Shown one piece after another: positions 1,651 to 33,247 of a stretch of DNA of 51,475 nucleotides (its first letter is position 1; each line of letters opens with the position of its first letter). Below the pieces are notes generated by a model, which was not told the origin of the DNA, made no database searches, and was given only the letters and a program-made list of their open reading frames with translations. Made by a program: the position numbers and the translations under genes. The stretch comes from Planctomycetaceae bacterium (GTDB lineage Bacteria; Planctomycetota; Planctomycetia; Planctomycetales; Planctomycetaceae): NCBI GenBank assembly GCA_947476295.1, contig CANJQC010000025.1, positions 1 to 51,475 on the forward strand. Reading direction: 5' to 3'.

Positions 1651-2129
1651 GCCATCCTGCTTGCATTCTGCCGATTTAATTCCCCGATTTCTTATTCATA
1701 AAGCTGCACACGTCATAACAGCCTGCGGCGCAAGATTTGACGTTCTTCGGTTTCAGGTCCGGAGGACCGACACATCCAATGCCGGTGGCGCGAGCCACCG
1801 GAATGTGAGATTAAAGGAATTTAAGGCCTGACAGGCCGACACACGGGGGATTATATCGATCCTCCCGGCCTGAATTGCTGTATTTTCCATTTTCCGGTGG
1901 CTCGCACCACCGGCTGACGAGGTGTCGGGCTTTCAGCCCTGAAGCAATGCGCAACTCCAAATCCCTTGGCTCACGGTTAACGAGGTCGCTTTTGTACCGG
2001 CAAGCTGACGCATGCCGCTCGCCAATTCGCTCAAATCGCGGAAGAAATCACGTTTCAGCAGACAAAACACGCGGCGAGCCTCTCTTTCGATTTCATAAAC
2101 CCTGACTTCAGCGAATCGCGCTTACCACT
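1651..2129. repeat. Intergenic mosaic of short hairpins, interspersed repeat copy 1
   Basis: This 479-base gap holds no convincing gene. Its core (about 1751-1980) is a chain of perfect small palindromes: GGTCC-GGA-GGACC (1756-1768), CCGGTGGC-GCGA-GCCACCGG (1782-1801), GGCCT-GAC-AGGCC (1825-1837), CCGGTGG-CTCGCA-CCACCGG (1894-1913) and GGGCT-TTC-AGCCC (1927-1939). Bases 1751-1790 match 4031-4070 at all but two positions, and 1923-1942 match 4074-4093, so this is a dispersed repeat with a shorter second copy about 2.3 kb away. The hairpins lack U-tracts, so a simple terminator role is not evident. Confidence 0.8.
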
Positions 2130-3368
2130 GTGAAAAGAAATAACATGAACTCCAACGCAGAATTCGCACTCGTCCGTACGATGTCGCAGGTACTTGCGAT
2201 GACCGCTGTCCTGGCAACGAAGTTACTCGCGAGTCCATTGTCGAACGACGAAGCAAAACCCGCAGCCGCAGAACGGAACCCGGCAGTCATTGTGGAATCT
2301 GTCTCGCCTGCCGATTCGAACGATGCTGCCTCAAACTATCTTTTCGCCGCGCTTGATCTGGGCATAAGGGTTCCTGACTACGTTGACTCAGCAACCACGG
2401 ACGATCCGAATAACGGTTTCTCGGTTTTGCTGTCTGATCAACAAAAATCCTACCTCAAACTTCGATCATCCACATCTGCGCTGAGCCGATTTGACGCAGC
2501 CACGTCCTGCCATGAATGTGTTTGGTCGCGCTATTCCGGAGCCAGTTGGTCTGATGCGCACCTCAACGATTGTCTCCACAGACTGGCCAGAGTTGCGTCG
2601 CTTCGGGCGCGCCTCCACTACGAAGCCGGGCAATGGATTGAAGGAAATCGTTGTGTGGAGCGAGTAAGAATCATGGCCCGACACATGGCTTTGCAAGCCC
2701 GACCTTATGAGCACCAATGCTTTATGGTCGAAAACATCGGAATGGGAACGGCTGCGGCATACGTACTGCAGTTTCCCAAAGAAGCACTTACGGACTTCCA
2801 TGAACGCCATCAACGACTGGGTCCTTTCTCTCCAAAGGCAAGCATGCTGGCGGCTGAAGCCAAACGCCTGAAAGCCCTCGCGGAAAGCATTGAGGCAGAA
2901 TCGGTGACGACGAACAAATCACTCGACTTTATCTACCCATACTTCGCAAACGAAGAGGACGAACAAAGGTTTAGTGCGATGCCGAGCAAAAACGCCGCCG
3001 ATCAACTACGAGGCCTGGCCTCATTCTTAAGTGATCTTGCAGCATTGATCGAAGGCGATCACAACGGTGTGGAAAAACGCTTTACCGAACTTTATCATCA
3101 GCATTCCAGCATGTGCCCGCTGGTTGCCGGTTTAAGTGATCCGATATCCGACTATCGAGAGCATGCGCAGGGCATGTGTCGTGCAGCAATGGTCGGAGCG
3201 GTGATCGAACAACTTCTGTCTGACCGACCGGATTTCGCTACGATTAAAGATCCGTACGGAACAAGGTCGTTTGAATTTCGGAAGCAGTCTAACGGCTTTA
3301 TCCTGGTCTCCGAATTAAAGAATCACTCCCGTATAGATTTTACTTTCGGCCTGGCGGCTTCCAGATAG
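2130..3368 (+). CDS. Unrecognised exported alpha-helical protein
   Basis: I do not recognise a named family. The frame opens with a GTG at 2130; an ATG at 2145 (giving 407 residues) is an equally good start and sits behind an AAAAG stretch. The N-terminus has a weak signal-peptide-like hydrophobic segment ('VLAMTAVLATKLLASPLS'). The rest is mostly alpha-helical and polar, with helical-repeat-like segments around residues 150-320, and contains a 'CHEC' pair near residue 129. The end ('IKDPYGTRSFEFRKQSNGF') resembles the 'DPF-G-pF-Y-R-dGF-LYS' tail that I recall on large planctomycete lipoproteins and secreted helical proteins of unknown function; here the usual final 'YSVG' is degenerate. It stands alone between repeat copies and probably shares a transcript with the next gene, 74 bases downstream. 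Confidence 0.75.
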   Translation: MKRNNMNSNAEFALVRTMSQVLAMTAVLATKLLASPLSNDEAKPAAAERNPAVIVESVSPADSNDAASNYLFAALDLGIRVPDYVDSATTDDPNNGFSVLLSDQQKSYLKLRSSTSALSRFDAATSCHECVWSRYSGASWSDAHLNDCLHRLARVASLRARLHYEAGQWIEGNRCVERVRIMARHMALQARPYEHQCFMVENIGMGTAAAYVLQFPKEALTDFHERHQRLGPFSPKASMLAAEAKRLKALAESIEAESVTTNKSLDFIYPYFANEEDEQRFSAMPSKNAADQLRGLASFLSDLAALIEGDHNGVEKRFTELYHQHSSMCPLVAGLSDPISDYREHAQGMCRAAMVGAVIEQLLSDRPDFATIKDPYGTRSFEFRKQSNGFILVSELKNHSRIDFTFGLAASR

Positions 3369-3442
3369 TTGGCGATGAAGAACCCGGATCGGCTCGGATC
3401 AATCCGAGTTGGTTGGCTGTATTCCGAACGCAATGACTGACC

Positions 3443-3961
3443 ATGACGATCAATCCCAATCTGCAGACAACGCATGACGAGCTTTCCTTGGCCAGTCAGG
3501 GAAAGCGCAGTCCGACCGTTGTTTGTCTTCCGGCCGGCGAAGTGATTTTTCGCTTTGCCAGCACCAAGCGACAAACGACCGGCGAGAGCATTCCGTCCGA
3601 CCAGTGGGCGCGGGGGGCATGGTGGATTCGTGAAGCGGATTACAAGGTTATCATCGAACGTTTTAAGACCGGTCATTTGTCGCTCGGGACAGTCGCCCGC
3701 AGCGCTGCTGCCGTACAGCCTTCGTGGAGCAACATGGATGTGTCAATCAAAGCGTATTTGCTCGACGATATCAACGTGTATGTGGGAAGGGGGTCAACTC
3801 AGTACCGGGATGTACTGCCAAACGGGATGTGTATGACGCTGCCCGGCTGGCCAGACATTGAACAGATCTATATCCCCGGGATGGGCCGCAATGGTTCGAC
3901 ATTCCGGAGCATCAAAGTGCAGCGCCAAAAAGTCATCTCGACGGATAACTTCGGCTTCTGA
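3443..3961 (+). CDS. Hypothetical protein, 172 residues
   Basis: The family is not recognised. The protein has no signal peptide and no membrane segment, so it is probably cytoplasmic. Its composition is that of a small mixed alpha/beta domain with many aromatic residues ('WARGAWWIREADYKVI', 'IKAYLLDDINVYVGRG', 'LPGWPDIEQIYIPGMG'). The later glycine/proline-rich strands look like a compact beta-rich fold. The ATG at 3443 is the only good start; the preceding bases are not strongly purine-rich. It follows the 2130-3368 gene by 74 bases in the same direction, and codon use is like that of the neighbours, so it is likely a real gene, but nothing here supports a function. Confidence 0.7.
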   Translation: MTINPNLQTTHDELSLASQGKRSPTVVCLPAGEVIFRFASTKRQTTGESIPSDQWARGAWWIREADYKVIIERFKTGHLSLGTVARSAAAVQPSWSNMDVSIKAYLLDDINVYVGRGSTQYRDVLPNGMCMTLPGWPDIEQIYIPGMGRNGSTFRSIKVQRQKVISTDNFGF

Positions 3962-4030
3962 GTGCCTGGCAGCGACAAAGTTGCCACAACAGCGACTTCG
4001 GTTGAGTCCCGCAACCTTTGAAGTTGCGTG

Positions 4031-4130
4031 TTTCAGGTCCGGAGGACCGACGTATCCAATGCCGGTGGCGATCTGTCGGGCTTCCAGCCCTGACGAAATG
4101 CGGCACTTCAGAACCTTCGGGTCGGGTTAC
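4031..4130. repeat. Interspersed hairpin repeat copy 2 (internally deleted)
   Basis: Bases 4031-4070 repeat 1751-1790 almost exactly and 4074-4093 repeat 1923-1942. The roughly 130 bases between these blocks in copy 1 are missing here, which removes the right arm of the CCGGTGGC hairpin. The surviving palindromes are GGTCC-GGA-GGACC (4036-4048) and GGGCT-TCC-AGCCC (4078-4090). Similarity fades into the leader of the giant gene at 4246. The rest of the 284-base gap 3962-4245 shows no gene. Confidence 0.8.
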
Positions 4131-4245
4131 AGAATTGCACAGATTGAACATCAGCATGGCCCTGCGGAGCACATACCGCAAGGTTTTCAAAACCGGGTCA
4201 GGCTGCGACAATCTCAATGGTTGATACGCAGTCTAAGTTCGGGAT

Positions 4246-7200
4246 GTGAGCCGCGATATGGGTGCATTGAAGTGTCGTCATTTGCTTGTCGTTACGTTTC
4301 TATTCGCTGTCTGGTGTTCAGCGGCCTTTGGCGACAGAGAGACAGCTCTGCGCCAGCTGGAACAGTCGCGACAGAAATATACAACGTCTGAGACATGGGC
4401 GGCGCGGCAAAGCATGCTGCGGGAAACGTTCCTGAAAGGTGTAAGACTTTGGCCCCTTCCTGTTCGTCCCGCCGTCAAGGCAATTGTCAATGAGCGGCGC
4501 GTGTATGACGACTACTCAGTCGAAAACGTGGCGCTCGAAACTCTGCCCGGGTTTTATTGCACGGGTAATCTGTATCGTCCGGTTGGTCGCAAGGATCTGA
4601 GTCCGATCGTGCTGTGTCCGCATGGTCACTTTCGTCCGCTCGGGCGCTTTCGCGAAGACCAGCAGATTCGTTGCGCCCATTTTGCGCGGATGGGTGCGAC
4701 TGTTTTTTCTTACAGCCTCGTGGGCTGGCAGGATTCGACTCAGACAACGCATGACGATCCGCTGGTTCTTGCACTGCAGACATGGAATAGCCTGCGTGCG
4801 GTCGATTTCCTGACCACCCTGCCCCGGATCGATACCGCGCGCATCGGCGTGACTGGCGCTTCCGGCGGCGGGACGCAGTCGATGTATCTGAGTCTGATTG
4901 ATGACCGCATCACGGCTCTCGCCCCACTCGTCATCATTTATCCCTGGACTGAAGAGCAGGCGTGTCTGTGCGAAGGCGGCTTACCAATTATGAAGCCCGC
5001 CGATACGAATGCGATTGAACTGGCTGCCGCATGCGCTCCCAAACCACAGTTGCTGATTTCTGTCGGAGCCGACTCAACCAAAGATTTTCCAGTCGTTGGG
5101 TTTCCGTTTATGCAGCATATGTACGAGTTGGCCGGAGCGAAAGACGCCGTTGAAAACATTCACCTTCCGGATGAAGAACATGACTTCGGTATCACAAAGC
5201 GCAAAGCGGTTTACGAATTCTTCGCGCGACATTTGCAACTGACTCCGAACGAATTCAATGCGCCTGAAAAGCTGCCCGCCGGAAAGTTTCAGGCCATGCC
5301 TGAAGATCTCGAATGCATCACGATTGAACCGCCCGAACGCATGACCGTGTTTACTGCGGACCACCCGATTCCGGCTGACTCGCTCAAGGGATCGGACGCC
5401 GTTGGTAAAAGTTTTCGAAGTCATCTGGCGGAACTTCGCAATTCCAAATCCAACGCCGTTTCAAAATCAGCCCGGCCACCCGTGGTTGAGTATTCGTTCA
5501 AGGAAGCCGGCACGCAGGACGAATCTCTGATCTTTACGCCACCAGGGTTCGACAAGGTTGGAGTCCCTAAAGTCGCTCAAGGCCCCGACACGGCGACGCT
5601 GAACATTTCCGTTCGCGATTTGGCCACGGGACAACCCACCCATTGCCGAATCAACGTTGTCGGATCAGACGGCAACTATTACGAACCGGAAAAAAACGAA
5701 TTCAAGCTCTATAGTTTTACCGGGGTCTGGCCGACATCCGGCTGGGGAAATCGTACGGGCAAAGCGCCTGTGCGGTATCTTGGCCGATTCTTTTATTCCA
5801 ACGGAACAGCGTCCGTTGTCGTGCCCGCCGGGACCGCACGCGTTGAAGTCTGGAAAGGTTTTGAGTTTGCGCCTGTCACACGGACGACGCACGTAACACC
5901 CGGCGATACGCGCGACGTGACGGTGCCGATCTCACAAACGATCCCGATGGCAAAGGAAGGTTACTGGTCGGGCGATCCGCATATCCACATTCAGCGACTG
6001 GACGAAGTCGATGACGATCGCATTTTCGGGCTGATGCAGGCCGAAGATATTCATTATGGTTCGATTCTCGCTTATAACGAACCGGCCGGACCGTATTCCG
6101 GTTTTATGAAGCGAATGGATGCCCCGCAGAACAAAGGGACAGGACTACCTTCCACTGCTTCGCGCGGTAGTTACGTCATCCAGTCGGGACAGGAATACCG
6201 CAGTTCCAGTTACGGGCACATCAACTTTTATCTGCTCGATCAACTGGTCATGAACGGACGTGACAACAACGCCGACAACTGGCCTCCGTTTGGCCATGTG
6301 TCGCAGCGTGTTCGTGAAGGTGGCGGCGTTTCGTTTTACGCTCACGGGGGCTACGCGAAGGAAATCTACGCCGACGTCGTACAGGGAAATGTAGACGGCG
6401 TTGAGCTGCTGCAGTTCGGCGTTTATCGCGGCATCGGTCTCACACACTGGTACCACATGCTCAATACTGGTTTCCGTGTTCCAGCCATGGGAGCGTGCGA
6501 TTATCCCGCCTGCCGCAAACTGGGCGACTGCAAAACGTACGTGTATTGCGGCGACGAGCAACCTGATACGCCGCCGACTTTCGAACACTGGACTCGCCAG
6601 ATGGCGGCGGGACAAAGCTTCTTCACGAACGGTCCGATGGTGCTTTTTTCAGTCAACGAAAAAAGACCCGGCGAGCAGATCGAAGCAACCGGTACTGATT
6701 CAACGTCCGTGATGGCACGAGTTCGCGTCCGGTCCGACGTGGCACCTGTGACAAATGTCCAACTGATCGGCAACGGTCGAATTCTGCACGAAATTGTCGT
6801 GCCGAAGGATCAGGGTAAAAGCAACTGGCTGGACTTTGAGATACCTCTGGAGCTCACCGAATCCGCTTGGATTGCCGCGCGAGCATTTTCGTTGTCTGCG
6901 CTGGAAACTCCGGACGCCGAAGCGCACACAAATCCTGTTTACGTCTACCTCAACGAAAAGGCCCCGTACGAACGTGAGTCGCTGGACGTGCTGGTCACGG
7001 CGATCGACACGCAGATCGACTTTCACAAGAAACGCGAGTTTGCTGAACGGGCACAGGTGATTGCGTATTTCGAGAAGTCGCGCGATATCCTGATGCAGAT
7101 TCGCGAAAATGGCAGCGCGAGCTCGCACGGCCATCCGTCAGACCTCAGCGTGACTCAGGCAATGCTCGACGATCCCGGAAAACGCGAGCATACGGACGAA

Positions 7201-10200
7201 GAACTTCGTGAATTCCTCAAACCATTGCCCGCAAAACCGATCGCTGAAGTGTTGCGATCTTTTGAAACGGATAATGGTTTCGAGATGCAGCTTGTGGCCC
7301 GTGAACCGCTGGTCAATGACCCGGTCGCGGCCTGTTTTGACGAAGACGGAAACCTCTATGTCTGCGAAATGCGAGACTATCCTTACAAGCCGGCAGAGGG
7401 CAAAGAACCCATTGGCACTCTGCGGCTGTTGAAAGACACAGACGGCGATGGCAACTTTGACGAAAGCCACATCTTCGCCGAGCACTTGTTGTGGGCGGGT
7501 GGTGTCGCACCGTGGAAGGGTGGCGTGTATGTCGCTGCGGCACCGGATATTTGGTATCTGAAAGATACCGATGGTGATAACAAAGCTGACGTCCGACGTA
7601 AAGTATACACGGGTTTCGGCACCGGAAACCAACAGGCGATGCTGAACAATCTGACGTGGTGGCTGGATCATCGGATCTACGGTTCTTCCGCAGGCAACGG
7701 CGGTGATGTGCATTACGCTGATTCGCCATTGGCAGGCTCTGCCCCGGTCTCTGTGAGTGGACGGGATTTTCGATTCAGTCCTGCAGATGACCGCTTCGAA
7801 TCCATCACCGGCACGGTGCAGTTTGGTACTACATTCGACGACTGGGGCAATCGTTTTCTGTGCAGTGAATCACGACCACTGCTGCACGCCGTGCTGCCTC
7901 AGCAATACCTGGAAAGAAACCCCTGGCTGCCGGTGACGAACGCCATCCATGACTTAACAGGAGGACCCGTGCCGTGTTTTCGCATCAGTCCGCTCGAACG
8001 CTGGCGGATGATTCGATCCAGTCGCCGTATTGCGCATGGGGCCCGGTCGCCCGACGCTGCTGGAGCCAGCCATCACGTGATCGATGCGGCGGCCGGCGTC
8101 ACCGTGTATCGAGGTGGCGCGTATCCGGTAGAATACTATGGCAATGTCTTCGTCGGCGGAGCTCAGGAAAATCTCATTCATCGTCGCAAACTTGTCCCGG
8201 ATGGTGCCAGCTTTTCGTCGCATCGCGCGGATGCCGCGACCGAATTCGTGAGATCATCCGACAATTGGTTTCGTCCCGTCAATTTCATAAATGCTCCGGA
8301 TGGGACGTTGTATGTACTCGACATGAGCCGCGAAATTCTTGAAACGATTCATGTACCGCTGGACGTGACCCGATTCATCGATTTCAAGAGCGGACGAGAG
8401 CAGGGCCGAATCTATCGCATCGCCCCAGCGGGATTCCAATACCCCGGTTCTCCTTCGCTGAGCAAAGCATCCACGGAAGAACTTGTGCAACATCTGACAA
8501 GTTCTCACGGCTGGTATCGTGACACGGCTCATCGATTATTGTTCGAACGTCAGGACCCGGCGGCAGTCGAACCACTGCGAAATCTGCTGCGGAGTGAAAC
8601 CACTCCGCAGGCAAAAGTCTATGCACTGTGGGCACTCGACGGCCTGAGTGTCCCGATCGCAGAGAAGTCCTCGTCGGCAGTCCACCGCAGATCGCTCGCC
8701 GATGCCGATTTAATTGAAGCCATTAAATTGACTGATCCCCGCGTTCGCGAACAGGCCATTCGGCTGGCTGAGTCCAGACTCGATTCAGTGCCCGAACTCC
8801 TTGCGAACGTCGCGGATGCAACGACGTCTGACGATGCTCGGTTGCGTCTCCAGGCCGCATTCTCACTCGGCGAATCTGGATCGGAAATCGCTGCGCGAAC
8901 GTTGTCACGATTGGCTCGACAGCCCGACAATGATCCGTGGCTGCGGACCGCCGTCCTGAGTTCTTCGAATCGCGTCGCTGTCTCTATGTTTTCCGAATTG
9001 CTGCAGGACAAAGAGTTCGCGACGTCGCCCGCCGGCAATGTCGTGCTGGGTCAACTTGTCAGTTTGATCGGGTCACGCAATGATCCGGATGAAATTGACT
9101 CAACGCTGCTGCGAATTGACGAAAGTCAGACGGACGCATCATCGGCTGGTGAACCTTTACTGGCAACACTGGGACATGCGTTCCAGTCGAGCGGTGCACG
9201 GTTTCGCGAGAACGCAGTCTCTGAGAAAGCCGCTGCTCTGTTGCGAAGAACTCGCATCAGAAGTGTTTCCACTGCACAAAACCGCTCGGCAGCGGATGCG
9301 AAGCGTGCCACTGCAATCGACCTGCTAAGTTGCTGGCCGTACTCGCAGACAGGCGACACCTTTCTGCCGTTAACGTCGCCTGAGCAACCAGAAACCGTAC
9401 AGCTTGCCGCGATTGATGCACTGGCAACATTTCCCGAACAGGCCATTAGTGAGTCATTGATCGCGGAATGGAGCCGGTATACTCCAGCCGCTCGCGAGCG
9501 CGTGGTCGAGGTCACTTTATCCCGAGCAAACTGGATTCCAACGTTGCTCGCCGCGATCAGGGCTGAGACAATCAGCCCTGCAGTCATCACTCCGGGACAG
9601 CGTGATCGTTTGTTAAACCATGCGGCGCCATCGATTCGCAGCGCTGCCGCAATGATTTTCGGCGCGTCTCAGAATGCAGCGCGGTCGGACGTTATTCAAG
9701 CGTACTCCGCCGCGATCAATTCAACAGCGGACACAGATGCGACCAGCGGTGCAAAGATATTCGCGCGCGACTGCGCGACATGCCATCGAATAGGAAATGT
9801 CGGCCATGTCATTGGACCAGATCTTGCCTCATCACCAGCGCGAGACCCTTTGGCACTGCTGACGCACATTCTCGACCCGAACAAGTATCTGCTGCCAAAG
9901 TATGAAACATATATTCTGATCGACACCAACGGCCGCACTCACAACGGCCTGATCAGCGCCCAAACCGCCAACAGCATCACGCTCAGCCAACAGGAAGGCA
10001 AGACCGAGACCATTCTTCGCGCGAACATTGACGAACAGATCTCCACCGGAAAATCGTTGATGCCGGAGGGATTCGAAAAGAAAATAACGACGTCAGAGAT
10101 GACTCAATTGATCGCGTTTCTGCAGTCCGTTGCCGCCACTCCGTCAGCAGATTCACAGCCACTTGATATCGGAACTCTCCCGGGGCTGATTGAGCCGGAA

Positions 10201-10206
10201 AGTTGA
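4246..10206 (+). CDS. Giant exported fusion: esterase + CehA/McbA-like metallohydrolase + PVC-type dehydrogenase/HEAT/cytochrome c
   Basis: This 1986-residue protein starts at GTG 4246; ATG 4258 fits the signal peptide ('LLVVTFLFAVWCSAAFG') better. Domains in order: (1) residues about 30-350, an acetyl-xylan-esterase-like alpha/beta hydrolase with nucleophile Ser206 in 'GASGGG', a likely acid at Asp276 and His312 in 'EEHDFG'; (2) about 455-900, a CehA/McbA-like metallohydrolase with 'GDPHIHIQ' (His579, His581), 'YAHGG' (His700) and 'GACDYP' (Asp752); (3) about 1000-1390, a PVC-type membrane-bound dehydrogenase beta-propeller with 'EMRDYPY', 'SPLERWRMIRSSRRIA' and 'VTVYRGGAYP'; (4) HEAT repeats to about 1810; (5) a planctomycete cytochrome c with heme motif CATCH (1843-1847) and candidate axial ligand Met1939. 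The reading frame is unbroken. The substrate is probably an esterified sugar or aryl compound, oxidised in the periplasm; this is inference. It appears monocistronic. Confidence 0.9.
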   Translation: MSRDMGALKCRHLLVVTFLFAVWCSAAFGDRETALRQLEQSRQKYTTSETWAARQSMLRETFLKGVRLWPLPVRPAVKAIVNERRVYDDYSVENVALETLPGFYCTGNLYRPVGRKDLSPIVLCPHGHFRPLGRFREDQQIRCAHFARMGATVFSYSLVGWQDSTQTTHDDPLVLALQTWNSLRAVDFLTTLPRIDTARIGVTGASGGGTQSMYLSLIDDRITALAPLVIIYPWTEEQACLCEGGLPIMKPADTNAIELAAACAPKPQLLISVGADSTKDFPVVGFPFMQHMYELAGAKDAVENIHLPDEEHDFGITKRKAVYEFFARHLQLTPNEFNAPEKLPAGKFQAMPEDLECITIEPPERMTVFTADHPIPADSLKGSDAVGKSFRSHLAELRNSKSNAVSKSARPPVVEYSFKEAGTQDESLIFTPPGFDKVGVPKVAQGPDTATLNISVRDLATGQPTHCRINVVGSDGNYYEPEKNEFKLYSFTGVWPTSGWGNRTGKAPVRYLGRFFYSNGTASVVVPAGTARVEVWKGFEFAPVTRTTHVTPGDTRDVTVPISQTIPMAKEGYWSGDPHIHIQRLDEVDDDRIFGLMQAEDIHYGSILAYNEPAGPYSGFMKRMDAPQNKGTGLPSTASRGSYVIQSGQEYRSSSYGHINFYLLDQLVMNGRDNNADNWPPFGHVSQRVREGGGVSFYAHGGYAKEIYADVVQGNVDGVELLQFGVYRGIGLTHWYHMLNTGFRVPAMGACDYPACRKLGDCKTYVYCGDEQPDTPPTFEHWTRQMAAGQSFFTNGPMVLFSVNEKRPGEQIEATGTDSTSVMARVRVRSDVAPVTNVQLIGNGRILHEIVVPKDQGKSNWLDFEIPLELTESAWIAARAFSLSALETPDAEAHTNPVYVYLNEKAPYERESLDVLVTAIDTQIDFHKKREFAERAQVIAYFEKSRDILMQIRENGSASSHGHPSDLSVTQAMLDDPGKREHTDEELREFLKPLPAKPIAEVLRSFETDNGFEMQLVAREPLVNDPVAACFDEDGNLYVCEMRDYPYKPAEGKEPIGTLRLLKDTDGDGNFDESHIFAEHLLWAGGVAPWKGGVYVAAAPDIWYLKDTDGDNKADVRRKVYTGFGTGNQQAMLNNLTWWLDHRIYGSSAGNGGDVHYADSPLAGSAPVSVSGRDFRFSPADDRFESITGTVQFGTTFDDWGNRFLCSESRPLLHAVLPQQYLERNPWLPVTNAIHDLTGGPVPCFRISPLERWRMIRSSRRIAHGARSPDAAGASHHVIDAAAGVTVYRGGAYPVEYYGNVFVGGAQENLIHRRKLVPDGASFSSHRADAATEFVRSSDNWFRPVNFINAPDGTLYVLDMSREILETIHVPLDVTRFIDFKSGREQGRIYRIAPAGFQYPGSPSLSKASTEELVQHLTSSHGWYRDTAHRLLFERQDPAAVEPLRNLLRSETTPQAKVYALWALDGLSVPIAEKSSSAVHRRSLADADLIEAIKLTDPRVREQAIRLAESRLDSVPELLANVADATTSDDARLRLQAAFSLGESGSEIAARTLSRLARQPDNDPWLRTAVLSSSNRVAVSMFSELLQDKEFATSPAGNVVLGQLVSLIGSRNDPDEIDSTLLRIDESQTDASSAGEPLLATLGHAFQSSGARFRENAVSEKAAALLRRTRIRSVSTAQNRSAADAKRATAIDLLSCWPYSQTGDTFLPLTSPEQPETVQLAAIDALATFPEQAISESLIAEWSRYTPAARERVVEVTLSRANWIPTLLAAIRAETISPAVITPGQRDRLLNHAAPSIRSAAAMIFGASQNAARSDVIQAYSAAINSTADTDATSGAKIFARDCATCHRIGNVGHVIGPDLASSPARDPLALLTHILDPNKYLLPKYETYILIDTNGRTHNGLISAQTANSITLSQQEGKTETILRANIDEQISTGKSLMPEGFEKKITTSEMTQLIAFLQSVAATPSADSQPLDIGTLPGLIEPES
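9558..9580. repeat. Palindromic element inside coding sequence
   Basis: This is a perfect inverted repeat with 9-base arms (CAGGGCTGA / TCAGCCCTG) and a 5-base loop (GACAA), lying in frame in the HEAT-repeat part of the giant protein (codons about 1771-1778, encoding 'IRAETISP'). The GGGCT/AGCCC core is the same word as in the intergenic hairpins at 1927-1939 and 4078-4090, which suggests the same element family. Confidence 0.6.
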
Positions 10207-10228: not shown

Positions 10229-13051
10229 TCAACGGCGGCCCCGGCGTTCCCGCAGATGCGTGAGCGCTCGGAAAATCGTGTCCAGCACGTGATCCAGTTT
10301 GACGCCAATATCCTGAACCAAAAATCGAAGCACGAAGTAGTCATGTTCCTGAAGCAAGGCGTCCTTGCGACGGTCGCGGCGGTAAGCGTCTTCGTTTGCG
10401 AAATGCTGGCCGCCGTCCAGTTCGATTACCAGTAGAGTCTCCGCGTCCAGAAAATCCACTTCCATCTTCCCCCAGCCATCAAATGCGATGGGCAGCTCGG
10501 CGTTCATGCGAAACCGCCCGACTGTTTCTGCCAGCGTCTCAAGTCGTCGAAACAAAAATGCTTCGCTGGTACTGCGGGCTCGTTGCACGCCGTCGGCCTC
10601 CGGCTCGACATTGCGAGCTGTATGCACGAAGAGTTTGGCCAGTGGTTCGTCCACGCCATCTCGCACCAGTCGCCGAATACTCGCCGCGTAGTCGTTCTTC
10701 CATTGAGGATCGACGGGCAACGGAACTTCCGACGGCCAGCCGGGGACCGCACTTCCGGGCAAGAGCACGGTGTAACCGACAGCTTCGTAGCCGTGACAAC
10801 GGCGATCAAACATGCGGGACAGCATGGGCACGTTCAGATCGGCGTAGTCGTAGACTCGCACTTCTGTTTTGCCGTCGTGTAACCGATGCAAACGTCCGAC
10901 GTATTGGGCGATGGTGCCGCGCCAGGAAACGGGCAGCGTCAGGAACAGCGTGTCCAGTCGCGAATCGTCGAAACCTTCACCGATGTAGCGTCCCGTCGCC
11001 AGCAACACACGCGGTTCGCCGTCCGGGATGGCGACCAGTTGTTCCTGAGTTGCCCGGGACTCTCTGACACTCGTTCCACCGTGCAGAACAACGATGTGCG
11101 ACAGATGTGGCTTCAACAAGGCTTCCAGTACGATCAAATGCTCTTTTCGTTCCGTCAGCACGAGCGGCGAACGACCATCTCTGATGCACTGCACAACGTC
11201 GTCACAGATGATGCGGTTACGGTCGTCGGCGGCGATGAGTTCTCGATAGAGATCCTGAAACTGCAATCGCATATCCGGGTCGGCTTCGGTGATCGGTCGA
11301 AACGAAGTAGGCCGCACAAAGACCGAATGCCGAAAGGGCCGAGCCACTGCTTCGGACTTTGCATCGACCGTATGTCGCACCGGACCACACTGCATAAAAA
11401 TGATGGGATGATGTCCGTCTTTGCGAGTCACGGTCGCAGACAACCCCGTCACGAATCTTGCCTTTGCCCGCCGGGCCACTAGTTCGAAGCTGTGCGCCGA
11501 CAGATGGTGGCATTCGTCCACGATCAAGTGTCCGTAGTCCGCGACACAATCATTGACCACGTCCTTCCGCACGAGGCTCTGAATGATGGCCACGTCGATT
11601 CGGCCTGTCGGCTTTTTCCGTCCTCCACCGATGCGGCCGATGTCTTTAGCCGACAAATCTAGAAACGCGGCCAGACGTTCGACCCATTGATCCAGCAATT
11701 GCCGCCGATGCACCAGCACTAATGAATTGACTCCGCGTGCGGCGATCAACCACGCCGCGATGACCGTCTTGCCGAAGGCCGTGGTCGCCGACAAAACACC
11801 GGTTTCGTGCCGCATTAATTCATCAACGGCCTTTTGTTGTCCCGGCCGCAGTTCGCCGCGAAACGTCACGTTCAGCGGCTCTCCCGTGACACGTTCATCC
11901 TGAATGTCTATCTCGATCTTCAGGTTACTGAGCAGCGTCTGAACATCGTCGAAGCAGCCGCGCGGCAGAGAAATATGCTGCGCATGTTCTTCCGCGCAGG
12001 CAATGATCCGAGGCTTGTCGTATGTCGGCAACCGCATCGACTGAGCCTTATAGAACTCCGGATTCTGAAACGCCGCTGTGCGTACCAACCGATTCCGCAG
12101 TTCCGGGGGAAGTGATGCTTTCGCGATGTAGATCTGATCGCCCAGGGTCAACGTCACACGTTTCGGCAATGTTCCTTGGATCGCCGGTTCGCGCGGTTGC
12201 CGGGAAGGAGCAGCCACCCAGGGTTCTCCCTCGTCGTCATCAGGCATCGCGATACGCACGTTGACAATTCGCCCTCGCCGACCGGCGTCCTGCACGATTT
12301 CCTCTACCGCTGATCGCGACATGCGTCGGATGGATGACAGGAATCGCCATTGATCCGGATACGGCACTCCCTGTTCATCCAGGAACTCGCTATTGCCGCG
12401 AGATCGCGGTTGCTTCTGCAGCGGCAGCGCAATCAGATTGCCGAATCCACCGCGTGGCAGCGTGTCCTGATTGGGAAAGAAGCGATCGTATGAATCCAGT
12501 CCGATATCCGGCCGCCGTTCCATCGTTTCCGTCAGCACATGAGATCCCAGTCGACGGGCGATTGTCGCCGGAACAGCGACATCAAAGAAGATCCAGACAT
12601 GTCCGCCGTTTCCTGATCGTGATCGCTCCAACACTGCCGGCACGTCCAGGCGGCGGCATGTTTCAAGCACGGCCGCTGTGTCCTGCTCCCAGTGCGTTTT
12701 GTCGAAATCCATCGTCAGAAAGAAGCACGTTTCATCAAGCAGCATCGGATACACGCCCGCCGTAAAGTCGGCTCCGCCAGCATCCTTCCCGGAAAGATGC
12801 CAGCGAATGACGTCGTCTGTCACCGGCAGAAACTGGCGATGCTGACATGTCGCGCACTTCACGCGAGGCTTCTCGCAAATGCCTCGCACCCATTCGTTGC
12901 CACACGCAGGGGAGTAACCCGCCTTTCCGGATGTCCGACTTTCAAAGCGCCGAGGATAAACATCCTCGCGACCACGGAACAGAGAGCGAAACAGCGCAAT
13001 CTTGCCTTCCGGCGAAGAGTAATGATGAACTTCTCTGCTGGTAGGATTCAC
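10229..13051 (-). CDS. TOTE-type conflict protein: AEP primase + superfamily 2 helicase + DUF559/Vsr-like nuclease
   Basis: A 940-residue single-chain defence-type protein. Residues 1-90 carry 'FRSLFRGREDVYPRRF' and a four-cysteine cluster (Cys50, 59, 66, 69) that could bind zinc. Residues about 95-255 form an archaeo-eukaryotic primase-like domain with the metal-binding DFD (Asp115, Asp117) and 'SGNGGHVW' (His151). Residues about 395-830 are a DEAD/DEAH-type helicase with Walker A 'TTAFGKT' (Lys428), 'VDECHH' (Asp512-Glu513), 'GLSAT' and 'QYVGRLHR'. The last 90 residues are a DUF559 PD-(D/E)xK nuclease ('EVDFLD...VIELDGGQH'). This order matches proteins grouped as TOTE conflict systems, thought to act against foreign nucleic acid. 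The ATG at 13051 fits the conserved family N-terminus. It ends 22 bases from the convergent giant gene. The neighbours upstream on the same strand are a JetD fragment and a C5 methyltransferase. Confidence 0.88.
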   Translation of the reverse strand: MNPTSREVHHYSSPEGKIALFRSLFRGREDVYPRRFESRTSGKAGYSPACGNEWVRGICEKPRVKCATCQHRQFLPVTDDVIRWHLSGKDAGGADFTAGVYPMLLDETCFFLTMDFDKTHWEQDTAAVLETCRRLDVPAVLERSRSGNGGHVWIFFDVAVPATIARRLGSHVLTETMERRPDIGLDSYDRFFPNQDTLPRGGFGNLIALPLQKQPRSRGNSEFLDEQGVPYPDQWRFLSSIRRMSRSAVEEIVQDAGRRGRIVNVRIAMPDDDEGEPWVAAPSRQPREPAIQGTLPKRVTLTLGDQIYIAKASLPPELRNRLVRTAAFQNPEFYKAQSMRLPTYDKPRIIACAEEHAQHISLPRGCFDDVQTLLSNLKIEIDIQDERVTGEPLNVTFRGELRPGQQKAVDELMRHETGVLSATTAFGKTVIAAWLIAARGVNSLVLVHRRQLLDQWVERLAAFLDLSAKDIGRIGGGRKKPTGRIDVAIIQSLVRKDVVNDCVADYGHLIVDECHHLSAHSFELVARRAKARFVTGLSATVTRKDGHHPIIFMQCGPVRHTVDAKSEAVARPFRHSVFVRPTSFRPITEADPDMRLQFQDLYRELIAADDRNRIICDDVVQCIRDGRSPLVLTERKEHLIVLEALLKPHLSHIVVLHGGTSVRESRATQEQLVAIPDGEPRVLLATGRYIGEGFDDSRLDTLFLTLPVSWRGTIAQYVGRLHRLHDGKTEVRVYDYADLNVPMLSRMFDRRCHGYEAVGYTVLLPGSAVPGWPSEVPLPVDPQWKNDYAASIRRLVRDGVDEPLAKLFVHTARNVEPEADGVQRARSTSEAFLFRRLETLAETVGRFRMNAELPIAFDGWGKMEVDFLDAETLLVIELDGGQHFANEDAYRRDRRKDALLQEHDYFVLRFLVQDIGVKLDHVLDTIFRALTHLRERRGRR

Positions 13052-13437
13052 GATGAGACTCCGCCAGTCTGAATGGTCGGGGCTGTTGATTCAGAATTGC
13101 GACTCCTATCATACCGACCAGTGTCGATCAACTGAGACAAGAATCTGGCATCTACGCGGAAAATGCGGCCCAAAGCAGCCATCACGCTCCGCCGTGATGA
13201 GCCCACACGCTGGCCCGCACCACTGACAGCCTCACGCTCCACGTTCAAAAAACGACGTCCTGAAAGCCACGTCAATACAGTTCAATACAATGCAACCGGT
13301 CTCCGGACATCACGTCGGCACAAAGAGGCTCGTCACGGCGGAGCGTGACGGCTACGTTAGAAATGGGGTCAGGCGGACTTGTTTGCCAAATCGAATCTCG
13401 ATACAGCATCAATCACGGCTGCCTGTGGAATTCGCTC
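13052..13437. repeat. Gap carrying one hairpin module in both orientations
   Basis: No gene is visible in these 386 bases between two minus-strand genes. CATCACG-CTCCGC-CGTGATG (13181-13200) and GTCACG-GCGGAG-CGTGAC (13334-13351) are the same palindromic module in opposite orientation: the loops CTCCGC and GCGGAG are reverse complements. A third degenerate piece (CCTCACGCTCCACG) lies near 13230. The pair flanks about 130 bases with no coding potential. It may be a site of past rearrangement next to the truncated JetD gene. Confidence 0.65.
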
Positions 13438-14250
13438 CTATTCAATCCGCAGGTTGTCGGCAACACACAGACTGAAAGCAGCCATTTCGACATCGGTCAG
13501 CAGTGGCGGAACAGAGGGTTGACGCTTTGAGCCCGGAACAGTGAGACTGTCTTTCCAGCGCTCCAGCGTGGCGGCGTCCATCAGAAAGCTGCGGGTCTGA
13601 GGAAACCGAATTCGCAGACGCGACAGGATCTCGAAACCTTCAACGTCCAGATCGCCACAGTACCACACTGCGCAGTTGGCCAACCACGGGACGTATGTCA
13701 GATCAACGATACCGTTGCCCAGTCCGCCGATGGCAATCGCCACAGGCATGGGCGGTAACGTCAACAGGTTGACTTTGTTTTCGACGATGATTACGGTCAC
13801 TGCTTCGATCGGCGATTCCGCCAGTGAATGCAGAGGCACACTGCATTCACGCCACGGACTGCCGGCAGATCGTTGCAACGCCGGGCCCAGAAATCGCAGC
13901 AGTACTTGAGGTTCTGCGTAACGCAGGCCGAAGCGGCGCTCGAAATGGCGTTCGTCGGCGCGAATCGTTTCCGGAGGCAACACGATGTTCAGCCACGGCT
14001 CCAGAATACCGGCATTCTGTTCGATAAACTTCGTATCGACTGATAACGGGATCTCGCGTGCAAACACACCGGGCCGCGGATGCAGTTTCTGATATTCGAC
14101 AACATTCAACAGGCCATCGACCGCTTTCAAGTTCGCGATCAGCAGCACGCGATTCGACTGCAGCCATGATTCGTGCTGTGGCAGGCGATGTCGGATGCGT
14201 TCGACTGCGGTTGCAAAAGAGATTTTTTTACATGGCTGGCGAATTCCTGC
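13438..14250 (-). pseudogene. jetD: Wadjet JetD nuclease (DUF2220 Toprim), 5'-truncated remnant
   Basis: JetD is the Toprim endonuclease of the Wadjet (JetABCD) anti-plasmid SMC system. The first start codon is GTG 14148 (236 residues), but JetD-like sequence continues upstream in frame ('FATAVERIRHRLPQ') right up to the dcm stop codon at 14251-14253, with no ATG, GTG or TTG in between. Seen: the DUF3322-like 'FAREIPLSVDTKFIE', then the Toprim domain with Glu123 ('IIVENKVN') and Asp166/Asp168 ('GDLDVEGFEIL'), and 'SFLMDAATLERW'. Family members are about 390 residues, so roughly the first 120-150 codons are gone, while the catalytic half looks intact. jetA, jetB and jetC are absent. It could still make a short Toprim protein from GTG 14148 by translational coupling to dcm; I judge a decaying fragment likelier. 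Confidence 0.75.
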
Positions 14251-15345
14251 TCACTCCGACATTGAGCCTCGCTGCCATTGCATTGTCAGCACGATTTGCT
14301 CTGCGATCACATGAGCAACGAGGGGCACAACCGCATTCCCGAATTGTTTGTAAGCGCGTGTGTCGGAGACGACCTGGTTGCGGATCAGTTCCTCGGGAAA
14401 TCCCATCAGCCGCCCGGCTTCCAGCGGCATGAGGCGGCGGGGGTTCTTGCCGTCGTGTTGTGGAATCAGAATTTCCGCACCGTCCTTGTAATATCGGGCG
14501 CTCAACGTGCGGCTGATACCATCCAGCGGCGCAAGTCCATATCCAAAACCATTTCCCTTCGCTTCGTGCTTGGCGCGATAGTCCTGCAGGTATTGCCACA
14601 ATAGATCCGAAAGTGTGTAACGTGGCGGAATCGAGTTATCTGGTTCTAGCACGTCACGAAACTTCGGCCCGGGCTTAGGCGGCGACTGCGGGAATTCAAA
14701 CGGCGGTTCATCGCCATAGAGATCGCGGCGGAATCCGACGATGAAGATTCGCTCCCGATGCTGCGGCACATAATGCTGCGCATCAATGGTCTGCGCAAAG
14801 ACCGTATAGTCCAGCTCCTCCAGTGTCTGCAAAATGGTCTTCCACGTATTGCCGCGATCATGGGATCGCAGATTCTTGACGTTTTCGAGCAGCAGGACGG
14901 CAGGACGTCGGGCTTCGATCAGCGTCGCCAACTTAAAAAACAGTGTGCCTTGCGTCTTGTCTTTGAAACCATGTTCACGCCCTAGGCTCTTTTTCTTGGA
15001 AACGCCGGCGATGGAAAATGGCTGACAAGGAAATCCAGCAGCGAGCACTTCATGTTCCGGAACATGCTGACCATCCACAAAATCATTGATGTCGCCCACC
15101 GGCGCTTCACCGAACCAAGCTGCGTACGTCTTCTGAGCATAGGGGTCAATCTCGCAGGAGAAAACACAGCGACCGCCAGCTTTCTCGAGGCCAATCCGCA
15201 ACCCGCCGATGCCGGCAAACAGGTCGATAAAACGAAAATCTAGCACTCCAACGCCCCTCTTGTCAGCGTTGGATACGTCGGAATGTTTTGGCGGCTTTGA
15301 AACCGAAGCGAAAAAAGGCAGTGTCTGTTGTTTACGGCTTTGCAT
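14251..15345 (-). CDS. dcm: DNA (cytosine-5-)-methyltransferase
   Basis: A complete C5 cytosine methyltransferase of 364 residues that transfers a methyl group from S-adenosylmethionine to cytosine in a target DNA sequence. Motif I 'DLFAGIGGLRIGLEKAG' is near residue 41, motif IV 'GFPCQPFS' has the catalytic Cys107, motif VI is 'LLLENVKN', motif VIII is 'QHRERIFIVGF', and motifs IX/X are 'RTLSARYYKDG' and 'QFGNAVVPLVAHVIAEQI'. The target-recognition region lies at about 225-290; specificity cannot be read. I chose ATG 15345 ('MQSRKQQTLPFFAS'); a GTG at 15363 would add six residues. No restriction enzyme of matching type is next to it, so it is either an orphan or the self-marking part of the defence island with the downstream TOTE protein. 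Its stop codon is in the same frame as the JetD remnant. Confidence 0.95.
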   Translation of the reverse strand: MQSRKQQTLPFFASVSKPPKHSDVSNADKRGVGVLDFRFIDLFAGIGGLRIGLEKAGGRCVFSCEIDPYAQKTYAAWFGEAPVGDINDFVDGQHVPEHEVLAAGFPCQPFSIAGVSKKKSLGREHGFKDKTQGTLFFKLATLIEARRPAVLLLENVKNLRSHDRGNTWKTILQTLEELDYTVFAQTIDAQHYVPQHRERIFIVGFRRDLYGDEPPFEFPQSPPKPGPKFRDVLEPDNSIPPRYTLSDLLWQYLQDYRAKHEAKGNGFGYGLAPLDGISRTLSARYYKDGAEILIPQHDGKNPRRLMPLEAGRLMGFPEELIRNQVVSDTRAYKQFGNAVVPLVAHVIAEQIVLTMQWQRGSMSE

Positions 15346-15363
15346 ATTTGGTCTCAGCGCCAC

Positions 15364-15687: not shown

Positions 15688-17361
15688 ATGGCGAAACAAA
15701 AATTGATAATCGTGATCGTCGGTGGCGTTGCAGGTGGCGCGTCTGCGGCGACGAGGGCTCGGCGGTGCAACGAACAGGCAGACATCATTCTGCTAGAGAA
15801 GGACGAGTATGTTTCATTCGCGAACTGTGGCATGCCGTATCACATCGGCGGTGAGATTCCAGATCGCAGTAAATTGCTGGTGGCGACGAAAGAACTTCTG
15901 GAACGCCGATTTCGACTCGACGTACGTACGCAAAGTGAAGCCGTGCGAATTGATCGCCAGGCAAAAAACGTGATTGTACGTCGAGTCAAAGATGGTAGTG
16001 AATACGCGCAACCGTACGACAAACTCATTCTTTCCCCGGGTGCCGCACCGTTTGTGCCAAAGATGGATAGCACTGACGCCAAAGGTGTGTTCACACTTCG
16101 CAATATCGCCGACATGGATCGCATTCGCGCGGCGGTGGATCAGGCTCCGCCGGCCGAACGCAGAGCTGTGGTGATCGGGGCGGGGTTTATCGGGCTGGAA
16201 ATGGTTGAACAACTTGTGGGGCGCGGGTTCGCTGTCGCAGTGGCGGAATTGCTGGACCAGGTGTTGCCGCCGATGGATCCGGAAATGGTCGTACCGCTGC
16301 AGGATGACATGCGAAGTCGCGGTGTTACTCTGGAACTCGGCAGCGGCATTCGTTGTATCACGAAAGATGCTGCCGGAAATGCCACAGGCGTCGAATTGCT
16401 GAATGGTAAGACACTGTCGGGCTCACTCATCATCCTTGGCATGGGCGTGCGTCCAAACACGCGGCTGGCGATTGAATCGGGTCTGGAGATTGGCAAGACA
16501 GGTGGTATCGCAGCCAATTCCTATTGTCAGTCATCTGATCCGGATATTTACGCGGTCGGTGATGCGGCGGAATATCTGACAGCACCGCTCGGCCAATCGA
16601 TGCGAGTTGCTCTCGCTGGCCCCGCCAATCGTGCGGGACGTCTGGCAGGTCAACATGCAGCGACAGGCACATCGGCAAAGATGGCGGCCGTTCTGGGCAC
16701 CGCGATCGTGCGCGTGTTCGAGTATGCTGTCGGAATGACAGGGTTATCGGCCAAGGCCGCGACGCGGGCGGGACTCCGGTTTCGCTGCGTGACGGTCGTG
16801 GCAGGCCAACACGCGGGTTACTTTCCCGGCGCTACACCTATCACGCTGAAGCTGATCTATGCTGCCGACGATGGTCGTGTGCTGGGGGCTCAGGCGATTG
16901 GCAAGGACGGGGTCGATAAGCGCATCGACGTGATTGCGACGGCCATGGCGTTCAACGCGACAGTCCGCGAGCTTGCTGGCTTGGATCTGTCCTACGCACC
17001 GCCGTACGGATCGGCGAAAGATCCAGTCCATCAAGCAGCCTTTGCTGCGTGCAATCAACTGGACGGACTGGGGGATCTACTGGACCCGGACGCGGACTTG
17101 TCAGGATATCAGGTGGTCGATGTTCGCACGGCGGCGGAAATTACCAAAGCCCCTTTGACCGGATGCACCGCCGTGATCGCCATTCCCGTGGATGAACTGC
17201 GTGAGCGATTGCACGAACTCGATGCGTCGCAGCCGACTGTCGTCAGTTGCGGCGTCGGACTGCGCGGTCATGTGGCGCAAAGAATTTTGAAGCAACATGG
17301 CTTTGCTTCAGTCGCAAATCTCTCCGGAGGTGCCACACTGCGACGCCGGGCTGTGCAGTGA
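15688..17361 (+). CDS. CoA-disulfide-reductase-like FAD/NAD(P) flavoprotein with C-terminal rhodanese domain
   Basis: A 557-residue cytoplasmic flavoenzyme. It has an N-terminal FAD site ('VIVGGVAGGASAATRARR', residues 9-26), the single redox cysteine of the CoADR/NADH-oxidase branch (Cys47 in 'SFANCGMPYHIGG'), an NAD(P) site ('AVVIGAGFIGLEMVEQL'), a second FAD motif ('DIYAVGDAAE') and a dimerisation domain ('VLGTAIVRVFEYAVGMTGL', 'DKRIDVIATAM', 'SYAPPYGSAKDP'). The C-terminal about 95 residues are a rhodanese domain with Cys521 in 'VVSCGVGLRGHVA'. Such fusions (CoADR-RHD) reduce CoA disulfide, persulfide or polysulfide with NAD(P)H and pass sulfane sulfur to the rhodanese cysteine. The usual Arg-Ser of the rhodanese loop is Arg-Gly here. 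ATG 15688 follows an AT-rich leader; the stop is 8 bases from the convergent phosphatase gene. Confidence 0.92.
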   Translation: MAKQKLIIVIVGGVAGGASAATRARRCNEQADIILLEKDEYVSFANCGMPYHIGGEIPDRSKLLVATKELLERRFRLDVRTQSEAVRIDRQAKNVIVRRVKDGSEYAQPYDKLILSPGAAPFVPKMDSTDAKGVFTLRNIADMDRIRAAVDQAPPAERRAVVIGAGFIGLEMVEQLVGRGFAVAVAELLDQVLPPMDPEMVVPLQDDMRSRGVTLELGSGIRCITKDAAGNATGVELLNGKTLSGSLIILGMGVRPNTRLAIESGLEIGKTGGIAANSYCQSSDPDIYAVGDAAEYLTAPLGQSMRVALAGPANRAGRLAGQHAATGTSAKMAAVLGTAIVRVFEYAVGMTGLSAKAATRAGLRFRCVTVVAGQHAGYFPGATPITLKLIYAADDGRVLGAQAIGKDGVDKRIDVIATAMAFNATVRELAGLDLSYAPPYGSAKDPVHQAAFAACNQLDGLGDLLDPDADLSGYQVVDVRTAAEITKAPLTGCTAVIAIPVDELRERLHELDASQPTVVSCGVGLRGHVAQRILKQHGFASVANLSGGATLRRRAVQ

Positions 17362-18560: not shown

Positions 18561-18780
18561 GGCTTGCTCAATATTGTGAAAAAAAATGTGGACGCAGCAG
18601 ATTAAGTTCTACGCGGGATAATTGGTATAATCGGGTGATGTTCAAATGAAACGTCGACTTATTGGACCCACAGGGGGGAAATAACGAGTGTTACGATTAT
18701 TGTGAGTTAGATTAGGCAACACAAGAGACTTGTAACGGCGACATTCAGGATTCGATCAACCTAGAACTTCAGAATGAGCA
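18561..18780. promoter_or_regulatory. Divergent control region with extended -10 promoter for the chemosensory operon
   Basis: A good extended -10 element, TGGTATAAT, lies at 18623-18631 on the plus strand, with a weak -35-like TTAAGT 18 bases upstream (18602-18607). Transcription would begin near 18638, leaving a leader of about 140 bases before ATG 18781. The leader contains a G-rich block (18672-18678) and no obvious terminator. A weak minus-strand pair (TTGAAC / AATTAT, 16-base spacing) overlaps it and could serve the phosphatase gene, so the two directions may compete. The calls rest on consensus matching alone. Confidence 0.45.
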
Positions 18781-23176: not shown

Positions 23177-23310
23177 TAGCTCAATGATCACGGATAGCGT
23201 TTGCCATGTTGGTGATGCATGCCCGTCGCTCCACTGACGTAATCCTTAACACGTGTGGTTAGCGTTTCCGTTTTCCCTCGTCATCAAAATAATTCCCCCT
23301 AAATCTGTCA

Positions 23311-25551: not shown

Positions 25552-25552
25552 A

Positions 25553-33124: not shown

Positions 33125-33247
33125 AACTGAACCGCCTCTGGTAACGACTCTGGCAGTCTGCATCAACGCCGTTGTGGACTTCAGCAAGACTCGCCAGCCA
33201 AGACTGAGGCAGAATACCGGGGTCAGGCCGGCATTGCCACGCAGTGA

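Follow-up and report, generated by a model that had tools for sequence, protein, structure and literature searches.

A single open reading frame in the DNA stretch analysed here (the window; 51,475 nucleotides of contig CANJQC010000025.1 from a Planctomycetaceae bacterium) raises the question of why an esterase, a metallohydrolase and a propeller carrying a cytochrome are joined in one polypeptide, and what such a polypeptide would do. DUF7133-cytochrome proteins form large planctomycete families whose chemistry is essentially unknown, and the window genome alone has 18 DUF7133 genes. Where such proteins are fused to enzymes of known type, the partner offers a natural clue to this chemistry; here it is related to a characterised methylesterase and occurs in two linear orders.

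The frame at 4246-10206 (+) translates into 1986 residues with zero internal stops. The first-pass annotation had placed three module types in one unbroken exported frame, and this was borne out by the uninterrupted translation, by a leader judged by eye, and by matches to Pfam, NCBIfam and PDB 6goc. The NCBIfam matches all exceeded the curated cut-offs: NF038032 (CehA/McbA) at residues 572-900 (151.4 bits versus 80), TIGR02604 at residues 1011-1396 (281 versus 122) and TIGR02603 at residues 1831-1961 (105 versus 68). Pfam matched DUF7133 at residues 1001-1394 (383 bits versus a cut-off of 27) and also HEAT_2. The features are as follows.

4246-10206, +: whole gene, 1986 aa, GTG start (alternative ATG at 4258); from translation and nine complete same-order relatives
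4246-4332, +: Sec-type leader, residues 1-29, likely cleaved after AFG; judged by eye
4336-5280, +: predicted BT1017/CE19-like alpha/beta-hydrolase esterase, residues 31-345; from sequence and model comparison with 6goc
4861-4863, 5071-5073 and 5179-5181, +: putative esterase triad S206, D276 and H312; roles from PMC7939467
5281-5535, +: linker 1, residues 346-430, the esterase tail and then the start of the CehA unit; from relatives and dN/dS
5536-6960, +: CehA/McbA metallohydrolase unit, residues 431-905 (NF038032 at 5959-6945); from NCBIfam and alignment
5980-5988, 6193, 6217, 6343 and 6499, +: CehA residues HxH, E650, H658, H700 and D752
6961-7245, +: linker 2, residues 906-1000, a conserved helical segment; from relatives and dN/dS
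7246-8433, +: DUF7133/TIGR02604 propeller, residues 1001-1396; from Pfam, NCBIfam and model comparison
8446-9720, +: HEAT-repeat solenoid, residues 1401-1825; from Pfam HEAT_2 and the model
9736-10128, +: TIGR02603 cytochrome c domain, residues 1831-1961; from NCBIfam
9772-9786 and 10060-10062, +: CxxCH and candidate axial Met, both in the cytochrome c domain

Complete fusions in the same order were found in 9 of 80 loci, all in other records (1966-2035 aa), and they are 58-75% identical over the first two modules. Two further fusions were cut by contig ends, and one (G142/L102) has stops and frame breaks. In the pairs measured, dN/dS of the catalytic modules was about 0.04-0.13, indicating purifying selection on each of them, and linker 1 was the fastest-evolving part. 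Locus L093 is labelled Verrucomicrobia, where mis-binning is possible.

The modules had been described as normally separate genes, a view that our results bear out only in part. Joining of CehA to a propeller-HEAT-cytochrome unit is already common in the family: 11 of the 20 same-family genomes that have this CehA without the esterase fusion carry it fused to a propeller-cytochrome unit. Proteins joining a hydrolase to such a unit also recur in the window genome, where at least 6 of the 18 DUF7133 genes have an enzyme grafted in front; partners include ceramidase-like, GDSL lipase, glucuronoyl-esterase-like and FG-GAP modules. A new finding is that a distant planctomycete (L096; JACQVW010000157.1) encodes this set of modules in a single frame whose final module is the esterase.

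The esterase had zero Pfam matches above cut-off. It matched BT1017 (PDB 6goc) in a phmmer search with an E value of 2.6e-63, and its AlphaFold model superimposed on 6goc with Z 35.5 (336 aligned residues, rmsd 2.7, 38% identity) in VIA-align. S206, D276, H312 and the oxyanion histidine H128 were identical in 9/9 aligned sequences and aligned with BT1017, for which PMC7939467 assigns the triad roles. C240 and C242, candidate ligands for a CE19-type Zn site (two Cys and two His), were likewise identical in 9/9 and aligned with Cys residues of BT1017. According to the same paper, BT1017 is active on methyl-GalA and methyl-GlcA and inactive on acetylated RG-I or 4-nitrophenyl acetate. Judged by sequence and model, the window esterase is near the methylesterase BT1017 (CE19), so the combination is partly interpretable. 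Our best guess for its substrate is a methyl-esterified uronosugar.

In the CehA unit, the GDxHxH motif (H579, H581), E650, H658, H700 and D752, a putative metal-ligand set, were identical in 18/18 CehA sequences. The CehA alignment profile retrieved zero rows from PDB sequences, so no solved relative could guide ligand assignment. All three modules had been said to keep intact catalytic residues; for the esterase the predicted triad stood, and for CehA the statement holds as conservation of residues.

In the cytochrome domain, CxxCH (C1843-H1847) and M1939 were kept in 12/12 aligned sequences. In the propeller model (pLDDT 71), likeness to PQQ sugar dehydrogenases reached Z 13.7 over 246 residues for 3a9g, Z 12.1 for 2g8s and Z 11.3 for 1qbi; the model was also near the non-enzymes HHIP (Z 12.2, almost as close as 3a9g) and teneurin (Z 10.2). 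This likeness came from a second structural comparison; among the matches listed by Foldseek for the propeller-HEAT-cytochrome model, HEAT/armadillo-type proteins predominated. The propeller alignment profile returned two chance kinase rows and nothing credible from PDB sequences, and Pfam GSDH matched 2/14 members (best E 0.02). The earlier name "PVC dehydrogenase" was not borne out as stated, and we use "dehydrogenase" as a label resting on the modelled fold.

The esterase-last protein is present in one draft genome, 1 of 10 of its order. Separate trees favoured an independent fusion (AU p 0.030 for the esterase with its 15 nearest rows; AU p 0.041 for CehA), whereas the joined CehA-to-cytochrome tree, which has a long branch and odd composition, did not reject a single origin of both orders (AU p 0.20). 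The esterase-last fusion may therefore have arisen independently, as the separate trees favour, the joined tree being undecided. An earlier esterase test (p 0.004) was discarded because its poorly chosen group omitted nested unfused rows, and a companion test of fused rows without L087 (p 0.007) was set aside for the same omission. The esterase tree does not resolve the fused rows as a single clade (grouping them with L087 by constraint cost 4.2 log units, p 0.26), so L088 and L091 may reflect fission. The first-pass annotation had proposed a channelled reaction from esterase through hydrolase to oxidase, a conjecture in which the order is questionable: the position of the esterase in L096 argues against inferring reaction order from protein order. 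The occurrence of the three parts in two linear orders suggests that they act on one substrate.

An unfused close esterase occurs in 3 genomes of the family, and every one of them has the CehA unit, versus 20 of 161 non-triple genomes overall (hypergeometric 0.0017, calculated by hand; 2 of the 3 genomes belong to one genus). Locus L088 has, on one strand, an unfused esterase gene and, downstream of it, a Lactonase-family gene and then a gene for a propeller-HEAT-cytochrome protein. An Abhydrolase_7 gene lies 5' of the esterase in both L085 (fused) and L088 (unfused), the two copies being 79% identical, and a remnant is present in L091; no further close copy was found among the loci compared. 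In an all-against-all comparison of 40 neighbourhoods, no neighbouring family occurred in more than 6, and gene sets common to the flanks of fused genes were restricted to one genus. No glycan-degradation locus was found beside the gene in the window. The neighbourhood was dropped as a substrate clue, since its conservation is scarce outside one genus.

We tentatively read the protein as an exported single-chain carbohydrate-processing enzyme comprising an esterase, a metallohydrolase and a sugar-oxidising propeller-cytochrome, an assignment somewhat short of an even chance. The CE19-type (BT1017) esterase would strip a methyl (or similar) ester off an acidic sugar, and the metal-dependent CehA/McbA hydrolase would cleave another bond in that glycan or glycoconjugate. 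The propeller, with its predicted PQQ sugar dehydrogenase-like fold, would oxidise the exposed sugar, and electrons would pass via the HEAT frame to heme c in the same chain. This reading draws on the closeness of the esterase to BT1017, selection on every catalytic module, the two linear orders, the single-module trees that favour separate fusions, the co-occurrence of unfused esterase with CehA, the L088 gene cluster, the propeller model likeness and the conserved CxxCH and Met. Against it stand the likeness of the propeller to non-enzymes, the absence of PDB sequence relatives for the propeller, the poorly conserved neighbourhoods and the undecided joined tree. We infer the substrate class, the redox role of the propeller and a single common substrate. 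A bolder version, which we consider rather unlikely, is that these three enzyme types were joined on two occasions, each time in another order, because they form one previously undescribed extracytoplasmic pathway. There, a methyl-esterified uronosugar would be unmasked, cleaved and oxidised, its electrons passing directly to heme c. The protein would then be a hydrolysis-coupled respiratory megaenzyme within a wider class of planctomycete proteins in which different hydrolases are grafted on a propeller-cytochrome chassis. We found no description of this three-part combination among the papers listed in searches of mostly open-access literature.

Alternatively, fusion may provide joint export and fixed stoichiometry only, with independent modules perhaps attacking different bonds of mixed cell-wall debris rather than a common substrate molecule. 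This is possible but doubtful. The many unrelated partners of the propeller-HEAT-cytochrome unit in the window genome and the fast evolution of linker 1 fit it, and the common substrate rests on inference; however, members of one esterase subfamily are joined to this CehA unit in both orders and also occur alongside it as unfused genes, which goes beyond random partner choice. We think it quite unlikely that the propeller-HEAT-cytochrome unit is a glycoside hydrolase or oxidation-elimination glycosidase, making the whole a de-esterifying glycosidase and not a respiratory oxidase. Lac161_ORF7 (TIGR02604-HEAT_2-cytochrome), which has the same architecture, is described in PMC5342196 as a beta-galactosidase: the protein purified from E. 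coli reportedly released glucose from lactose (Km 1.8 mM). Such activity should not need heme and counts against the oxidase explanation, but this is a single report using a glucose-oxidase kit, the likeness is by domain architecture, and the conserved CxxCH and Met point to electron transfer. Finally, an assembly merge or missed stops, for which a 252-contig draft genome and the broken G142/L102 relative might speak, was rejected as extremely improbable, because the nine collinear records and low dN/dS flanking both module borders leave no merge at 5500-5600 or 7150-7250, the positions where one had been suspected.

The fusion narrows the candidate substrates to a short testable list (methyl-uronates, pectin or RG-II fragments, and algal uronans). 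A single purified protein, or its two halves, would also allow a direct test of electron transfer.

Compared with known systems, the window esterase shares with the pectin methylesterase BT1017 (6goc; the CE19 founder) the modelled fold, the Ser-Asp-His triad and the GxSxGG motif, and the H/F of the BT1017 oxyanion hole and methyl pocket match H128 and F129. Unlike the window protein, BT1017 has a DUF3826 module and lacks a metallohydrolase or cytochrome. The model may share its propeller fold with the PQQ sugar dehydrogenases, namely 3a9g, Asd of E. coli (2g8s) and sGDH (1qbi), but no firm sequence relationship was detected. PVC-type TIGR02604-HEAT-TIGR02603 proteins, including Lac161_ORF7, have propeller, HEAT and CxxCH in the window order; they are often about 1000 aa and lack the two extra enzymes. 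Named members of the CehA/McbA family (NF038032) are carbamate-pesticide hydrolases. The window unit scores above the family cut-off and has a conserved His/Asp/Glu set of candidate metal ligands, but its branch differs from them in its N-terminal extension and its fusion to a redox-type unit. The CehA-propeller-cytochrome two-unit fusions of the same family (about 1600 aa) are collinear with the window protein over about 1500 residues, with 48-59% CehA identity, and differ from it by the esterase that it carries in addition.

The gene at 4246-10206 (+) was translated as 1986 codons with the reading frame open throughout. Together with the domain models, this bears out the claim of the first-pass annotation that three module types share a single unbroken frame. 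Its modules are:

Residues 1-345, + strand: alpha/beta-hydrolase (esterase), by phmmer against PDB and AlphaFold model
Residues 572-900, + strand: CehA/McbA metallohydrolase, curated model match
Residues 1001-1396, + strand: PVC-type propeller domain, curated model match
Residues 1488-1571, + strand: HEAT repeats, curated model match
Residues 1831-1961, + strand: CxxCH heme domain, curated model match

No Pfam model scored above its cut-off in the esterase region. By phmmer it matches PDB 6goc, the structure of BT1017 (E 2.6e-63). A 955-aa AlphaFold model with a mean pLDDT of 74 aligns with 6goc at Z 35.5 (336 residues, 38% identity). S206, D276, H312 and H128 are identical in 9/9 aligned rows. 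By the residues named for BT1017 (PMC7939467), the first three are the triad and H128 is the oxyanion histidine. In the CehA unit, GDxHxH, Glu, two His and Asp are kept in 18/18 sequences. The CxxCH and downstream Met of the heme domain, identical in 12/12 sequences, fit electron transfer.

Homologs were sought in 170 genomes of the same family (esterase E ≤1e-95, CehA unit ≤1e-100) and in a contig scan (80 of 102 loci kept); several scanned loci are contigs of the surveyed genomes, so the two surveys overlap. A close esterase was found in 11/170 genomes and the CehA unit in 29/170. Nine genomes carry the triple arrangement, which is complete in seven (the window genome, G077, G132, G015, G087, G105 and G116), interrupted by a contig end in G115, and disrupted by stops and frame breaks in G142, whose esterase falls below the survey cut-off. 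The contig scan returned complete same-order fusions of 1966-2035 aa at 9/80 loci (one, L093, in a record labelled Verrucomicrobia), plus a permuted fusion at one locus (L096). Two fusions were ended by the contig and one was broken; one locus (L087) encodes an esterase-CehA protein without propeller, and another (L088) an esterase that is not fused, close to a propeller-cytochrome gene. At 65 loci the esterase frame had no CehA or propeller match, some of these loci being too short to judge neighbours.

The dN/dS values from four pairs are rough because synonymous divergence approaches saturation (dS about 1.0-2.2). Esterase, CehA, propeller and cytochrome gave 0.04-0.13 in every pair that allowed the calculation (one esterase pair was saturated and one pair lacked HEAT and cytochrome). 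The values were 0.12-0.21 for HEAT, 0.12-0.41 for the esterase-CehA linker and 0.05-0.11 for the CehA-propeller linker. Judged from these sequences, the triple fusion is a real, selected gene.

The 29 CehA genomes comprise nine with the triple, 11 with CehA-propeller-HEAT-cytochrome (two ending at a contig edge once the propeller has begun), eight with CehA alone, and one (G062) with CehA at a contig cut and a close propeller half on a different contig. The modules had been described as usually separate genes. This is only partly right, since CehA and propeller-cytochrome are fused without esterase in 11/29. Given this distribution, CehA had most likely been fused to propeller-HEAT-cytochrome by the time the esterase was added. 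The esterase gene is unfused in three genomes (G037, G023 and G089). The left side of the esterase-CehA linker matches the tails of unfused esterases, and its right side the starts of unfused CehA units. A CehA unit lies elsewhere in 3/3 unfused-esterase genomes versus 20/161 non-triple genomes (chance 0.0017, calculated by hand and weakened by G023 and G089 sharing one genus). In the joined tree, ten complete triples form one clade (support 100/100).

The permuted fusion (L096, JACQVW010000157.1) comes from G450, a distant planctomycete of groundwater source, and was seen in this one draft genome among 10 of its order. Its single 1969-aa frame runs CehA-propeller-HEAT-cytochrome-linker-esterase, with identities to the window protein of 48% (CehA), 59% (propeller), 34% (HEAT), 44% (cytochrome) and 59% (esterase). 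Long frames arise easily at high G+C, and one of about 2100 codons lies antisense to this gene, but homology to the window modules is continuous through one frame. Placement inside the same-order group was rejected by the esterase tree (p 0.030) and the CehA tree (p 0.041), and was not rejected by the joined tree (p 0.20). The simplest reading is that the two orders were probably fused independently.

Other partners of the esterase type were also observed. It is fused to a C-terminal region judged by eye to resemble PhoD phosphatases (L124 of G474, 1949-4537) and to FG-GAP repeats by Pfam (L095, 9320-12163). L088:4732-11637 carries, on the same strand, Abhydrolase_7, the unfused esterase, a Lactonase-family propeller and DUF7133-HEAT-cytochrome, possibly an unfused sugar-oxidation operon.

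DUF7133 was matched 22 times in the window genome, across 18 open frames. Among the 12 proteins taken into the Pfam scan (window, L160-L163, L191-L197; the other six frames are 887-1082 aa), six, including the window protein, have an enzyme N-terminal to DUF7133, and one has FG-GAP repeats. The other front enzymes are two neutral-ceramidase-like, one glucuronoyl-esterase-like alpha/beta hydrolase and two GDSL lipase-like domains, one just below cut-off (32.4 vs 32.9 bits). In G023 a polysaccharide deacetylase takes this position. Because the enzymes fused in front are so varied, the propeller-HEAT-cytochrome part appears, by domain composition, to behave as a chassis for different hydrolases. 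One 1771-aa protein of this genome (L191:4846-10161) has copper and heme electron carriers in a single chain: its domains are GDSL lipase, DUF7133, PA14, a plastocyanin-like copper protein domain and cytochrome c.

BT1017 takes methyl esters off GalA and GlcA and shows no activity towards acetylated RG-I or 4-nitrophenyl acetate (PMC7939467). Given this specificity, the most likely substrate of the window esterase is an esterified uronosugar; at 38% identity the acyl group could differ. The best propeller matches of the propeller model were PQQ sugar dehydrogenases (3a9g, Z 13.7; 2g8s, 12.1; 1qbi, 11.3). Since HHIP (Z 12.2) and teneurin (Z 10.2) score close, the modelled fold alone is no proof of redox chemistry. 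Lac161_ORF7, with the same TIGR02604-HEAT_2-cytochrome architecture, is reported to be a beta-galactosidase (PMC5342196), which counts against an electron-transfer reading. The window protein would carry out de-esterification and hydrolysis, in either order, and then oxidation on one glycan, a proposal we make tentatively and judge slightly less probable than its contrary.

Other genes of the window were also noted. A defence-like island at 10229-15363 (-), convergent with the fusion gene, contains a TOTE-type primase-helicase with DUF559 nuclease, a 236-aa JetD (Wadjet) piece and a C5 cytosine methylase; JetABC partners were absent among annotated window genes. A pyridine-nucleotide disulphide oxidoreductase with C-terminal rhodanese domain (15688-17361, +) is followed by a compact chemotaxis cluster (17370-27549: SpoIIE regulator, Hpt-STAS, CheA with two CheW stretches, CheW, MCP, CheB, CheR). 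A beta-lactamase-family domain is fused with a 3-keto-disaccharide hydrolase domain at 27614-29443 (-), and one protein at 30860-33187 (-) pairs a SASA (sialate O-acetylesterase-type) domain with a GDSL lipase domain. An 886-aa protein with zero Pfam matches (46621-49281, +) lies within an exopolysaccharide-type cluster including O-antigen-ligase-like, asparagine-synthase-like and glycosyltransferase genes.

Compared with known systems, the esterase is nearest to BT1017, whereas CE15 glucuronoyl esterases are well behind (Z about 20 versus 35.5). Every module belongs to a known family, and the two-module fusion of CehA and propeller-cytochrome is common. No description of the triple fusion, in either order, was found in the open-access literature searched. 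The triple is an addition to the known PVC multi-domain cytochrome proteins.
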